Assembly: GCF_012926505.1 (NCBI RefSeq) | Contig: NZ_JABBNT010000002.1 | Coordinates: 744,001-808,000, forward strand | DNA: 64,000 bases | Direction of reading: 5' to 3' | Source of the DNA: Pacificispira spongiicola | GTDB lineage: Bacteria > Pseudomonadota > Alphaproteobacteria > UBA8366 > Aestuariispiraceae | Shown: positions 25,613 through 36,644 of the stretch, one piece after another | How positions within the stretch are numbered: the first letter of the stretch is position 1 | Layout of the letters: the number at the start of each line of letters is the position of its first letter | Made by a program: the position numbers and the translations under genes | The notes under the pieces: generated by a model | Seen by the model: only the letters and a program-made list of their open reading frames with translations | The model's database searches: none | Told to the model about the DNA's origin: nothing

Positions 25613-25638
25613 CCGCGCGACATAGTTCGCCATTTCCC

Positions 25639-25842
25639 CGTGGGAGAGTATCGTTTCGCGAGAAACGGTCGCCGAAGGAGCAACCGCCCCGGAATCTCTC
25701 AGGCCAAAGGATCGCGGGGGATAGAACGATCTGGAAAGCGGTGAGGGCCTAAGCGCCCGCCACCCACCGAAGGGGTAAGCCCCGCCCGGCATCCGTTATG
25801 CCGATGCGGTCGGTCACACTCTCAGGTTCCATGACAGAGGGG
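25639..25842 (+). ncRNA. Tandem glycine riboswitch
   Basis: Two glycine aptamers lie in the 5' leader of gcvT. The first (about 25639-25720) shows the conserved GGGAGAG, GCCGAAGGAGCAA and CTCTCAGGCCAAAGGA elements; the second (about 25728-25842) shows CACCGAAGGGGTAAGCC and ACTCTCAGGTTCCATGACAG. The short linker between aptamers is typical of the cooperative tandem form. In gcv operons it usually switches expression on when glycine is abundant. The expression platform lies between 25843 and the gcvT start. Confidence 0.93.
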
Positions 25843-32453: not shown

Positions 32454-32634
32454 CGGCCCTGCACGCGTGCTCAGTCAGTTTCGGCGGTCGTTTTCCGCCG
32501 CAGCACAGGTTTCAGGACGGGTTTTGCGCGGAATTCCGCTTTTCTAGGCCCGCCCTCCCCGGTAAAACCGCCGGGAACTTTGAAATGGCACAGTATTGCC
32601 GAACGTTGACGATTTTAGAGAGGATGTGACCGAT

Positions 32635-33747
32635 ATGGCCTCCAACAAGACTCTTTTGATGCTGCCGGGCGACGGGATCGGGCCGGAAGTTTGCGATGAA
32701 GTCCGCAAGGTTGTGGATTGGATGGACAAGCGCCGGGCGGTCACCTTCGACATCAAGGAAGACAAGGTCGGCGGCGCGGCCTATGACGCCTATGGCACCC
32801 CGTTGACCGACGACGCCATGGACAAGGCGCAAAACGCCGATGCCGTGCTGTTCGGGGCCGTCGGCGGGCCGCAGTATGACAATCTGGGCTGGGACGCGCG
32901 ACCGGAAGCCGGTCTGCTGCGCCTGCGCAAGGAAATGGACCTGTTCGCCAATCTGCGCCCGGCGGTGACGTTCGACGCGCTGCTGGAAGCGTCGACCCTG
33001 AAGCCGGAAGTCGTCCAAGGCCTGGACATCATGATCGTGCGCGAACTGACCGCGGGCGTTTACTTCGGCGAACCGCGCGGCATGCAGATGTGGGAAGGCA
33101 AGGAACGCTGCATCGATACGCAGTCCTACACCCGCGACGAAATCGTGCGCGTGGCGGAAGTCGCCTTCGACCTCGCCCGCAAACGGAACAAGCGCGTCGC
33201 GTCGGCGGAAAAGGCGAATGTTATGAAGACCGGCGTTTTCTGGCGCCAGACCGTCGCGGAAGTCCACAAGGACGGCGGCTATGACGATATCGAACTCAGC
33301 AACGTTCTGGCCGACAACTGCGCCATGCAGCTTGTCCGGAATCCGAAGCAGTTCGACGTCATAGTGACCGACAACCTGTTCGGCGACCTGCTGTCCGACG
33401 TGGCGGCGATGCTGACCGGCTCGCTGGGCATGCTGCCCTCCGCGTCGTTGGGCGCCGTCGACGAATTCGGCCGCCGCAAGGCCCTGTACGAGCCGGTGCA
33501 CGGCTCCGCGCCGGATATCGCGGGTCAGGGCAAGGCGAACCCGATGGCCATGCTGCTCAGCTTCGCCATGGCTTTGCGCTACAGCTTCGACCTGGGTGAC
33601 GACGCCGATCTGGTGGAACAGGCCGCCCAGGCCGTGCTGTCCACCGGCAAGCGCACGCTGGATATCATGAGCGCGGGCTGCGAGGCGATTTCGACCTCTC
33701 AGATGGGCGATGCCGTCATCGCCGAACTGGACAAGCGCGCCGCGTAA
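32635..33747 (+). CDS. leuB: 3-isopropylmalate dehydrogenase
   Basis: LeuB oxidises and decarboxylates 3-isopropylmalate, the third step of leucine synthesis. The 370-residue protein shows [13 protein letters not shown] at the start, [16 protein letters not shown], the catalytic regions [14 protein letters not shown] and [13 protein letters not shown], and the metal-binding [10 protein letters not shown]; the NAD-preferring [12 protein letters not shown] motif is intact. The ATG at 32635 was chosen for its GAGAGGATG ribosome site; an earlier ATG at 32596 adds thirteen atypical residues. Its stop overlaps the next start (TAATG). leuA, leuC and leuD are not in the window. Confidence 0.96.
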
Positions 33748-34367
33748 TGACGCAACGAACCGTACCGGCGCCCTGGTTGCCCGCGCTGTTGCTGGCGGCC
33801 CTGGTGCCGGTGCTGGTTTGGTCCTATATCGCGCCCCATGACCGCGCGACCTGGTGGATGGAAGCCCTGCCGGTCGCAATCGCGGTGCCGCTTCTGGCGG
33901 CGACCTGGAAACGCTTCCCGCTCACCCCACTCCTCTACATTCTGGTTTGGCTGCATGCCGTCATCCTGCTGGTCGGCGCGCATTACACCTATGCCCTCGT
34001 CCCGATCGGCGATTGGGCCCGGGACACTTTCGATCTCAGCCGAAATCACTATGACCGCCTGGGTCATTTCGCGCAGGGCTTCGTCCCCGCCATCGCGGCG
34101 CGCGAATTGTTGATCCGGCTGACGCCGCTGAAGCGCGGCGGCTGGCTGTTCGCCGTCGTCACCCTGTCCGTTCTGGGGATCAGCGCCGCCTACGAACTGA
34201 TCGAATGGGCCGCCGCCGAACTGACCGCCGACGGCGCGGAAAGCTTCCTGGGCAGCCAGGGCGATGTCTGGGACGCGCAGAAGGACATGCTCTTGGCCCT
34301 GATCGGCGCAGTGGTCGCGCAAATCGGACTGGGTCGGATTCACAGACGCGCCCTGCAACAACTGTAA
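33747..34367 (+). CDS. DUF2238 (YjdF-like) inner-membrane protein
   Basis: This 206-residue membrane protein has about six hydrophobic helices and the DUF2238 marks HYDRLGHFAQGF, AYELIEWAAAE and GSQGDVWDAQKDM. Homologues such as E. coli YjdF have no established function. Its start overlaps the leuB stop by one base, which implies coupled translation, but there is no evident metabolic link with leucine synthesis. Confidence 0.85.
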   Translation: MTQRTVPAPWLPALLLAALVPVLVWSYIAPHDRATWWMEALPVAIAVPLLAATWKRFPLTPLLYILVWLHAVILLVGAHYTYALVPIGDWARDTFDLSRNHYDRLGHFAQGFVPAIAARELLIRLTPLKRGGWLFAVVTLSVLGISAAYELIEWAAAELTADGAESFLGSQGDVWDAQKDMLLALIGAVVAQIGLGRIHRRALQQL

Positions 34368-34411: not shown

Positions 34412-35296
34412 ATGGTCCAAACAGCCCAACCGGAACCGCCCCTATTTCCTCGCCCCCTTCTGCCCGTCGGCAAACTGAGTTACGTCCTGCCAGACGATCC
34501 GCTGCCCCTGCGTGCGGCGGTGCGGGTGATGGAACGGTTGAGCGGATCCGGCAAGCTGGAGAAGCTGTATCGTCGCTGGCGGGTCGAAAAATACGCGCGC
34601 GGCGCGCCGTTTTGGGAATCGGCCCTGGAAATGCTGGGCGTCGACCTGCGGCTGCACGGCGCCCCGTGGCCCCCGGCGGTGGCGGAAGACGAACCGCGCA
34701 TCATCATCGCCAACCACCCGTTCGGCCTGATGGATGGGGTTGCCGCAGCGGCGCTGGCGGAGCGGCTGGGCCGACCGTTCAAGGTCATGGTGCATGAGGC
34801 GCTGATGCGCGTTCCGGAACCGGAACCCTATCTGCTGCCTGTCGATTTTTCGGAATCGCGGGAGGCGATGCAGAAGAACCTGCAACTGCGCAAGGATACT
34901 CTGGCCGCCCTAGCGCGGGGCGAAACCATCGTCATCTTCCCGGCGGGCGGCGTTTCGACCGCGCCGAAGGTCCTGGGCCCGGCGGAGGACCTGCCCTGGA
35001 AGCGTTTTACCGCGCGCCTGATCCGGGAGGCCCGGGCGACGGTCCTGCCGCTGTACTTCCCCGGCCAGAACGGATTGATGTTCCACGCCGTCAGCAAGAT
35101 CAGCATGCGCCTGCGCATTTCCATGATCGTCGGCGCCGCGAAACGGCACATGAACCGCCCGATCGACATATGCATCGGCGATCCGATCCGATATGACGAG
35201 CTGGAAGCCCTTGCCGGGAACCGCGACGCCTTGATGGATGTGCTGCGCGCCAAGGTCTACGGCCTGTCCTCCACGATGGGCAGCAACGACCCCTGA
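34412..35296 (+). CDS. Lysophospholipid acyltransferase family protein (PlsC-like)
   Basis: This 294-residue protein carries the acyltransferase block I variant NHPFGLMDG (His and Asp separated by five residues, as in hemolysin-like/OlsA-like acyltransferases) and a block III-like FPAGGVSTAPK. It should transfer fatty acyl groups to a lysolipid or ornithine-lipid precursor at the inner membrane. A hydrophobic stretch around residues 85-110 may mediate association. It stands alone, 44 bases after the DUF2238 gene, and a terminator-like hairpin follows at 35365. The precise acceptor is unknown. Confidence 0.82.
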   Translation: MVQTAQPEPPLFPRPLLPVGKLSYVLPDDPLPLRAAVRVMERLSGSGKLEKLYRRWRVEKYARGAPFWESALEMLGVDLRLHGAPWPPAVAEDEPRIIIANHPFGLMDGVAAAALAERLGRPFKVMVHEALMRVPEPEPYLLPVDFSESREAMQKNLQLRKDTLAALARGETIVIFPAGGVSTAPKVLGPAEDLPWKRFTARLIREARATVLPLYFPGQNGLMFHAVSKISMRLRISMIVGAAKRHMNRPIDICIGDPIRYDELEALAGNRDALMDVLRAKVYGLSSTMGSNDP

Positions 35297-35364
35297 CAAT
35301 CGTCCGGGACTATACCCCCGGTAAGTTTTTCTTGCAGTGCGGTAGCGACGACACTAGTCTTGCG

Positions 35365-35387
35365 CCGCCTTCAATCGGTGAAGGCGG
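35365..35387 (+). terminator. Terminator-like hairpin after the acyltransferase gene
   Basis: CCGCCTTCA and TGAAGGCGG form a perfect 9-bp stem with a 5-base loop, followed by AATTTTCG. It is 69 bases after the acyltransferase stop and 25 before the asd leader peptide. It probably ends the upstream transcript; an alternative is a role at the 5' end of the asd leader RNA. Confidence 0.55.
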
Positions 35388-35411
35388 AATTTTCGAATTA
35401 GGCTCGTTCAG

Positions 35412-35495
35412 ATGCATATGTCCGCCCCATTGGTCGCTTTGACTTTCGTTATCACGACCAAAACCACGACCAAAAAAACCACCACCGGTGTCTAG
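35412..35495 (+). CDS. Thr/Lys-rich leader peptide of asd (putative attenuator)
   Basis: A 27-codon open frame (ATG at 35412, alternative ATG at 35418, TAG at 35493) encodes a peptide whose residues 15-25 are TTKTTTKKTTT, preceded by I14 and followed by GV. Nine of 27 residues are Thr and three Lys. Aspartate-semialdehyde dehydrogenase, encoded 132 bases downstream, makes the common precursor of threonine, lysine, methionine and isoleucine, so the run of Thr and Lys codons is exactly what a ribosome-stalling attenuator would need. A strong hairpin (35526-35562) lies between leader and asd. The reverse strand is also open (35534-35310, Gly-rich), but has no ribosome site. This is a reading by eye, not a homology hit. 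Confidence 0.7.
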   Translation: MHMSAPLVALTFVITTKTTTKKTTTGV

Positions 35496-35525
35496 GCGGA
35501 CCCCGCGCATCCGAACATGGCGATA

Positions 35526-35562
35526 ACGCTTCATCGGGCCGGGGATTTCCCGGCCCGAAGCG
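35526..35562 (+). promoter_or_regulatory. Attenuator-type hairpin between leader peptide and asd
   Basis: CGGGCCGGG (35535-35543) pairs with CCCGGCCCG (35549-35557) around a 5-base loop; CGCTT and AAGCG extend it after a 3-base bulge. Competing pairing is possible: CCCCG (35501-35505) with CGGGG (35540-35544), supported by GGA (35498-35500) with TCC (35548-35550), would break the main stem; GGTGTC (35487-35492) can in turn pair with GACCCC (35499-35504) with one mismatch. This is the 1:2, 2:3, 3:4 layout of attenuators. No T-run follows the hairpin, so Rho, or blocking of translation, may replace intrinsic termination. Confidence 0.55.
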
Positions 35563-35627
35563 TATGCGGGATCGGGATCACCGGATCGAGGATCGAAACC
35601 CGAACCACGAGAAAGGGATAAGGAAAA

Positions 35628-36644
35628 ATGGGTTACAAGGTTGCAGTCGTCGGCGCGACGGGGAATGTCGGGCGCGAAATCCTGCGGATCATGGCGGAAC
35701 GCAATTTCCCCGCCGATCAGGTTGTCGCGCTGGCGTCAGAATCGTCGGTCGGCAAGGAAGTTTCCTATGGCGACGACGATGTGCTGAAGGTTCAGGCGCT
35801 GAAACACTACGATTTCAAGGGCACCGATTTCGTCCTGTCGTCGCCGGGCGCGAAGGTCAGTGCGGAATATTCGCCGAAGGCCGGTAAGGCCGGGGCCGTC
35901 GTGGTCGATAACACCTCCCATTTCCGCATGGACCCGGATGTGCCGCTGGTCGTGCCGGAAGTGAACCCGGACGCGCTGAAGGACTTCGGCAAGAAGAACA
36001 TCATCGCGAATCCCAACTGCTCCACCATTCAGATGGTCGTGGCACTGAAACCGCTGCACGATCTGGGCATCATCAAGCGCGTCGTCGTATCGACCTATCA
36101 GTCCGTATCGGGCGCCGGACGCGAAGGCATGGACGAGCTGTTCAACCAGACCCGCTCCGTCTTCGTGAACGACGCCATGGAACGTCACAAGTTCACGAAG
36201 CAGATCGCCTTCAACGTCATTCCGCATATCGACGTCTTCATGGATGACGGCTCGACCAAGGAAGAATGGAAGATGGTCGTCGAAACCAAGAAGATCCTCG
36301 ATCCGAAGATCAAGGTGAACGCGACCTGCGTCCGCGTGCCGGTCTTCATCGGTCACGCCGAATCCGTGAATGTCGAATTCGAACGCGATATCGGTGCCGC
36401 CGAGGTCCGCAAGGCGCTGCAAAAGGCGGAAGGCATCATCGTCGTCGACCATCGTGCCGATGAAGGCTATGTCACGCCGCAGGAATGCGCCGGGGAAGAC
36501 GCCGTCTACGTCTCGCGCATCCGCGACGACGCGACGGTGGAAAACGGCATTTCCATGTGGGTCGTGTCCGACAACCTGCGCAAGGGCGCGGCGCTGAACA
36601 CGGTTCAAATCGCCGAACGCATGATCCAGGACGGCCTAGTCTAA
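35628..36644 (+). CDS. asd: Aspartate-semialdehyde dehydrogenase
   Basis: Asd reduces aspartyl phosphate to aspartate semialdehyde, the branch point to lysine (and diaminopimelate), threonine, methionine and isoleucine. The 338-residue protein has the NADP loop VVGATGNVGREIL, the catalytic Cys in NPNCSTIQM and the STYQSVSGAGREGM loop, with the His in RVPVFIGHAESV. AAGGAAAA stands just before the ATG. It is preceded by a Thr/Lys leader peptide and hairpin and followed by a terminator. Its last codons overlap the end of the convergent AdaA-like gene. Confidence 0.97.
   Translation: MGYKVAVVGATGNVGREILRIMAERNFPADQVVALASESSVGKEVSYGDDDVLKVQALKHYDFKGTDFVLSSPGAKVSAEYSPKAGKAGAVVVDNTSHFRMDPDVPLVVPEVNPDALKDFGKKNIIANPNCSTIQMVVALKPLHDLGIIKRVVVSTYQSVSGAGREGMDELFNQTRSVFVNDAMERHKFTKQIAFNVIPHIDVFMDDGSTKEEWKMVVETKKILDPKIKVNATCVRVPVFIGHAESVNVEFERDIGAAEVRKALQKAEGIIVVDHRADEGYVTPQECAGEDAVYVSRIRDDATVENGISMWVVSDNLRKGAALNTVQIAERMIQDGLV

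Follow-up and report, generated by a model that had tools for sequence, protein, structure and literature searches.

The aspartate-semialdehyde dehydrogenase gene asd of Pacificispira spongiicola is probably controlled by a ribosome-mediated attenuator that would read the charging of both tRNA-Thr and tRNA-Lys. From sequence comparison, we put the probability of an attenuator as such at roughly 0.8. Three of its parts are well supported by comparison between genomes, namely a leader peptide rich in Thr and Lys codons, a pairing of RNA segments 2 and 3 that is kept across families, and a hairpin whose formation excludes this pairing. We infer that the leader is translated here, that ribosomes stall on it and that, in this genus, termination is what the hairpin brings about. 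The initial annotation had proposed a Thr/Lys attenuator of asd with a classical set of stems; its leader and its 2:3 pairing are borne out, while its 1:2 stem is not. The following features were assigned in the window, by which we mean the whole analyzed stretch of 64,000 nucleotides.

35332 to 35360, forward strand: putative promoter, TTGCAG-17 nt-TAGTCT, placed by eye in a block conserved in six genus members
35365 to 35387, forward strand: hairpin where the leader RNA is predicted to begin, with the arms CCGCCTTC and GAAGGCGG
35412 to 35495, forward strand: leader peptide frame of 27 codons with the stop TAG, from the open reading frame translation and recurring in relatives
35454 to 35486, forward strand: control codons, eight Thr and three Lys over eleven codons (residues 15 to 25, TTKTTTKKTTT)
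35498 to 35514, forward strand: segment 2, the 5' strand of the antiterminator, directly 3' of the leader stop, pairing with segment 3 according to the swap test
35519 to 35530, forward strand: small hairpin enclosed by the antiterminator, GGCG-ATAA-CGCT, in which one pair shows two-sided compensation within the genus
35526 to 35563, forward strand: terminator-type hairpin (segments 3:4) without a T-tract, from folding and comparison with representatives
35534 to 35547, forward strand: segment 3, common to the antiterminator and the terminator hairpin, from pairing and folding analysis
35628 to 36644, forward strand: asd, aspartate-semialdehyde dehydrogenase (Pfam PF01118 Semialdhyde_dh and PF02774 Semialdhyde_dhC)

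The leader frame translates as MHMSAPLVALTFVITTKTTTKKTTTGV, with nine Thr and three Lys residues in total, and ends 132 nt before asd. Its length, the run at residues 15 to 25 and the codon counts given earlier were confirmed from the sequence. Short frames such as leaders are easily missed by gene finders. Within the 4.2-Mb genome, the pattern ACNAARACNACNACNAAR occurs a single time, at the leader, and the reversed pattern used as a control does not occur at all. The short frames upstream of hom and of the best lysC match in the same genome all hold at most four Thr/Lys in 11 residues. A leuB-type gene of the Iso_dh family (32596-33747), a 206-codon frame (33747-34367) and an acyltransferase gene (34412-35296) precede the leader and asd. 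Since a terminator-like hairpin with a T-tract (35304-35321) lies 3' of the acyltransferase gene, transcription of asd probably starts from a separate promoter; a scan for strict consensus promoters found none. The arms of the hairpin at 35365-35387 differ between genus members and, by eye, seem to pair in several of them. At Rfam gathering scores, the leader element was unmatched in the window as well as in 16 related loci, and the sole match in the window was a glycine riboswitch aptamer at 25631-25724 (RF00504, 63.7 bits).

Downstream of the leader, the predicted antiterminator of the window joins CCCCG, GC and CCGA (35501-35514) with TCGG, GC and CGGGG (35534-35544) and encloses the inner hairpin. 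The pairing of CCCCG (35501-35505) with CGGGG (35540-35544), put forward in the initial annotation as the 2:3 stem, was correct; it is part of this longer antiterminator and covaries across families. There, the letters of segments 2 and 3 change while the pairing is kept, as in L014 (GAAGAACC with GGTTCTTC), L013 (CCTCCCG with CGGGAGG) and L038 and L067 (CGCGGGCC with GGCCCGCG). For a swap test, the pairing of each segment 2 with its own segment 3 was compared with its pairing with segment 3 of other species. Seventeen terminator-type representatives were used, among them one for the window's genus, with hairpins chosen automatically and Rhizobiales-like loci tested apart. Own pairs reached a mean of -17.7 kcal/mol versus -14.0 kcal/mol for swapped pairs (z -5.4, 0 of 10000 permutations). 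Three control stretches located 35 to 110 nt before the stop gave no excess, with z values of 0.1, 0.3 and +2.6, the last of which (85 to 60 nt before the stop) points in the opposite direction. With hand-set hairpins in 23 loci, the result was 0 of 20000; these hairpins were placed after the pairings had been seen, so that the automatic test, which chose differently in L013 and L124, is the fairer one. Within the genus alone, the antiterminator has one two-sided change and the terminator none, and the covariation measures were reached by 29 to 475 of 500 shuffles. The compensatory pair in the inner hairpin is A-U in three and G-C in three of the six genus members, and this hairpin and the lower terminator stem have bases in common.

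The same comparison gave no support to the 1:2 stem proposed earlier. GGTGTC and GACCCC contain one U-C mismatch in six positions, and in the 17 representatives own pairings were no better than swapped ones (z 0.2 to 0.6), so this protector stem was rejected as unsupported. A protector stem is not needed in every attenuator.

The GC-rich hairpin before asd, described earlier as extendable by 5 bp, is present with a core of 10 pairs and a lower stem of 5 pairs. It stands at the position matching the T-tract terminators of relatives, yet the T-tract is lacking, as already stated in the initial annotation: only two T were counted in the 8 bases 3' of the core. The two genus mates that were measured likewise have two T in 8, and the alignment of the six genus members is without a T-tract. 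A terminator scan did not include the hairpin of the window among its matches. Elsewhere, 12 of the 17 representatives have five or more T among the 8 bases on the 3' side of the 3:4 hairpin; examples are L014, L018 and L026, which belong to the same family as the window.

With regard to what characterizes attenuators of this kind, the window has a run of control codons on the same strand before a biosynthetic gene as well as exclusive 2:3 and 3:4 pairings within reach of a ribosome on the leader, although the latter are not clear in the Rhizobiales-like loci. An intrinsic terminator with a U-tract is found in the T-tract relatives and not in the window. The relatives with T-tracts therefore fit the family of ribosome-mediated attenuators, and the window appears to work like one, with termination as its presumed output. 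If both Thr and Lys are plentiful, the ribosome would reach the leader stop and cover segment 2, the hairpin at 35526-35563 would form, and transcription into asd would be curtailed. If either amino acid is short, the ribosome would halt inside TTKTTTKKTTT and leave segment 2 free, which could capture segment 3 before segment 4 is made; no hairpin would then form and asd would be expressed.

When the RNA of the window was folded with its 3' end placed directly behind segment 3, the CCCCG:CGGGG antiterminator had a probability of 0.97 with a ribosome stalled in the run, while with a ribosome at the stop the 5' strand of the antiterminator is covered. Once segment 4 is present, the hairpin is favored at equilibrium in both ribosome states (probability 0.97), and the switch would therefore rest on kinetics. 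A kinetic decision is the usual assumption for attenuators. All 18 further loci showed more 2:3 pairs in the stalled than in the at-stop state when the RNA ended after segment 3, a difference that is partly built in because the at-stop state masks segment 2. With full-length RNA, only L013 and L124 of these 18 clearly lose the terminator when the ribosome is stalled.

The alternative that survives best leaves leader and sensing untouched and differs in the output, which could be Rho acting after ribosome release at the leader stop, or control of asd translation, instead of intrinsic termination. It has the sensing half in common with the attenuator explanation and overlaps it. We regard it as a serious possibility, though clearly below even odds. 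The missing T-tract in the window's genus speaks for it. Against it, relatives with T-tract terminators have the same 2:3 and 3:4 arrangement as the window, and the hairpin core stops 70 nt short of asd, clear of the ribosome-binding site of this gene. A translational output is also suggested by the Rhizobiales-like loci, in which sequence downstream of the leader can pair with a stretch that contains or adjoins this site. In many Rhizobiales loci (L069-L107), CCCTCTCC about 20 nt after the leader stop can pair with GGAGAGGG, which in many of them lies directly before the ribosome-binding site of asd, over a span of 0 to 110 nt before the gene. The mean pairing energy with the ribosome-binding region was -28.4 kcal/mol in 14 Rhizobiales-like loci versus -15.2 kcal/mol in the 17 terminator-type loci. 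However, own pairings in these 14 loci were not better than swapped ones (z -1.3, 1001 of 10000), and the pairing was rejected as a covarying feature. As a suggestion only, the long-range pairing is a candidate translational switch. In 15 Rhizobiales-like loci, the swap test on segments 2:3 gave a weak signal (z -1.9, 339 of 10000), and one control stretch there reached z -1.5.

Besides or instead of such control in cis, the peptide itself might act in trans, like the Trp leader peptide of Sinorhizobium meliloti. This precedent, peTrpL (PMC7298713, as far as its available text goes), and an MRGLLMA-like N-terminal stretch that many Rhizobiales leaders have in common point that way. Against this, the N-termini differ among families and even between members of the window's genus, only the Thr/Lys tail being common, and we consider a role in trans improbable.

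The attenuator reading is further supported by the conservation of the frame. Six genus members have the tail KTTTGV in common, and each of the five genus mates examined keeps the Thr/Lys tail in frame, with a weaker run of 7/11 (AKTGKTTT) in G001, G003 and G005 and exactly one codon missing relative to the window in G002. Between the window and G004, all four differences within the run are synonymous third-position changes on the forward strand. This pattern led us to reject the Gly-rich frame on the opposite strand (35310-35534) as a real gene of which the Thr/Lys run would be the shadow. That frame is open across the leader tail in six genus members, and a reverse-strand Phe/Gly pair with at least 7/11 was found in 12 of 230 regions. 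However, reading Thr and Lys codons from the other strand in this register yields Gly/Phe-type residues and no stops, as expected of a shadow, and the four changes relative to G004 become first-position changes in the opposite frame. In a separate pair scan, Lys/Thr reached at least 7/11 in 56 of 230 regions on the forward strand, whereas none of the 230 did so on the reverse strand. A real gene on the opposite strand is accordingly very improbable. Neither a loss or frame shift of the run in relatives nor conservation of the opposite frame, both named in the initial annotation as evidence against a leader, occurs.

For the census, regions upstream of asd were collected from the genomes of 59 relatives, 80 named loci, the window's family and 240 genomes of the class drawn evenly, which resulted in 237 loci with 230 distinct regions. 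A match was present in 210 genomes of the class, and the class-wide sample consists of the 121 best-scoring regions among these; it is not a random draw. A leader was called when a frame within 300 nt before asd contained at least 7 Thr/Lys in 11 residues. Such frames were present in 58 of the 230 distinct regions, compared with 0.1 expected from dinucleotide shuffles, and at least 9/11 was reached in 22 regions and in no shuffle. Given this excess and the recurrence of Thr/Lys frames across many families, a chance low-complexity frame, for which nothing but the short length speaks, has a negligible probability. Extending the search to 420 nt again gave 58 rows, and this set was used in the later analyses. 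Eight rows with longer frames and a signal-peptide-like start (L008, L009, L010, L011, L015, L024, L027 and L141) were dropped by eye, leaving 50 leaders. At least three Thr and at least two Lys fall within the last 20 residues in 49 of the 50; as Thr alone would satisfy the threshold, both amino acids seem to be part of the leader design. Among the 172 regions negative for Thr/Lys, no other amino-acid pair was comparably strand-specific, the largest being Ala/Arg (29 forward versus 13 reverse) and Ala/Leu (13 versus 2).

The retained leaders occur in 6/6 genus members, 11/14 family members, 33/80 named loci (32 plus L032, a duplicate of L003) and, class-wide, 10 of the 121 regions that matched best. 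The leader-bearing named loci include Mesorhizobium, Aminobacter, Chelativorans, Nitratireductor, Ochrobactrum, Chthonobacter, Methylobacterium and several metagenome-assembled genomes labeled as Rhodospirillales. In sister families of the same order, the leader was found in 0/25 regions once the eight signal-peptide-like matches had been removed. This patchy occurrence suggests a leader that is either old and often lost, or else mobile.

A small frame of about 50 to 75 amino acids, counted from its probable start codon, with a signal-peptide-like start and a tail rich in Thr, Lys and Pro, lies before asd in 21 loci (L008, L009, L010, L011, L015, L016, L017, L019, L020, L021, L023, L024, L025, L027, L029, L031, L112, L113, L140, L141 and L142) belonging to sister families or to one of three genomes from the same family as the window. 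A T-tract hairpin follows downstream in several cases, and three examples had no Pfam match above the cut-off. It may encode a secreted small protein or be a relative of the leader. For the dropped loci, hand-set hairpins in four gave no good antiterminator, with the own segment 2 ranking 14 to 18 of 23, and automatic hairpins in five gave z -2.3 for segments 2:3 (74 of 10000; L141 best at -18.1); this dropped group may be a variant of the leader.

Leader-peptide attenuation is already known. The thrL leader of E. coli contains Thr and Ile codons and controls thrABC. The window resembles it in the Thr codons of the leader and in a ribosome position that would choose between antiterminator and terminator, but combines Thr with Lys before asd, in a genus without a T-tract and with an unsupported 1:2 stem. 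Among alphaproteobacterial examples, as far as described in the available portions of the sources, the Caulobacter ilv leaders (PMC4117421) and S. meliloti rnTrpL/peTrpL (PMC7298713, PMC10117765) are likewise leader-peptide attenuators of amino-acid genes, but with other amino acids and genes.

The closest precedent is SEP5 of S. meliloti, reported in 2023 (PMC10117765). According to the available part of that paper, it is a small open reading frame that carries six Thr and three Lys codons close to its 3' end and lies in the 5'-UTR upstream of a gene named as 'aspartate dehydrogenase', which we take to be asd. Its translation is documented there by Ribo-seq and Western blotting, and it is proposed as 'possibly a leader peptide' that is 'conserved only in Sinorhizobium'. 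The earlier statement that no described Thr/Lys attenuator was known for alphaproteobacterial asd needs correction for Sinorhizobium, where the core idea is in print (PMC10117765, available part), and otherwise agrees with our literature searches, which returned no further report, most subscription journals lying outside their scope. Attenuation of asd does not come up in the accessible portions of PMC1273637 and PMC4117421, and PMC2965389 contains none of the terms looked for. SEP5, compared here as a small open reading frame only, sits at apparently the same place as the leader of the window, which differs in lying outside Rhizobiales and having terminator-type structures. Judged by its published outline, SEP5 appears to correspond to the leaders found in Mesorhizobium and relatives. 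As far as the searches reach, what is new is the breadth of occurrence, the covariation of the antiterminator, the use of both amino acids in leaders of several lineages and the difference in RNA architecture between them.

The asd step feeds lysine, threonine, methionine, isoleucine and, via diaminopimelate, the cell wall. Tentatively, and at only slightly less than even odds, a Thr plus Lys attenuator on asd may be widespread in Alphaproteobacteria, with a constant sensor and an RNA output that varies by lineage, be it a T-tract terminator, the T-less terminator hairpin of the window's genus or, in Rhizobiales, a long-range pairing adjacent to the asd ribosome-binding site. If so, the leader would serve as an OR gate for a shortage of either end product, and one leader reading two end products at their common step would constitute a compact form of branch-point control. 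If the sensor is indeed kept while the RNA output changes, these lineages would offer a natural series for studying attenuator evolution.
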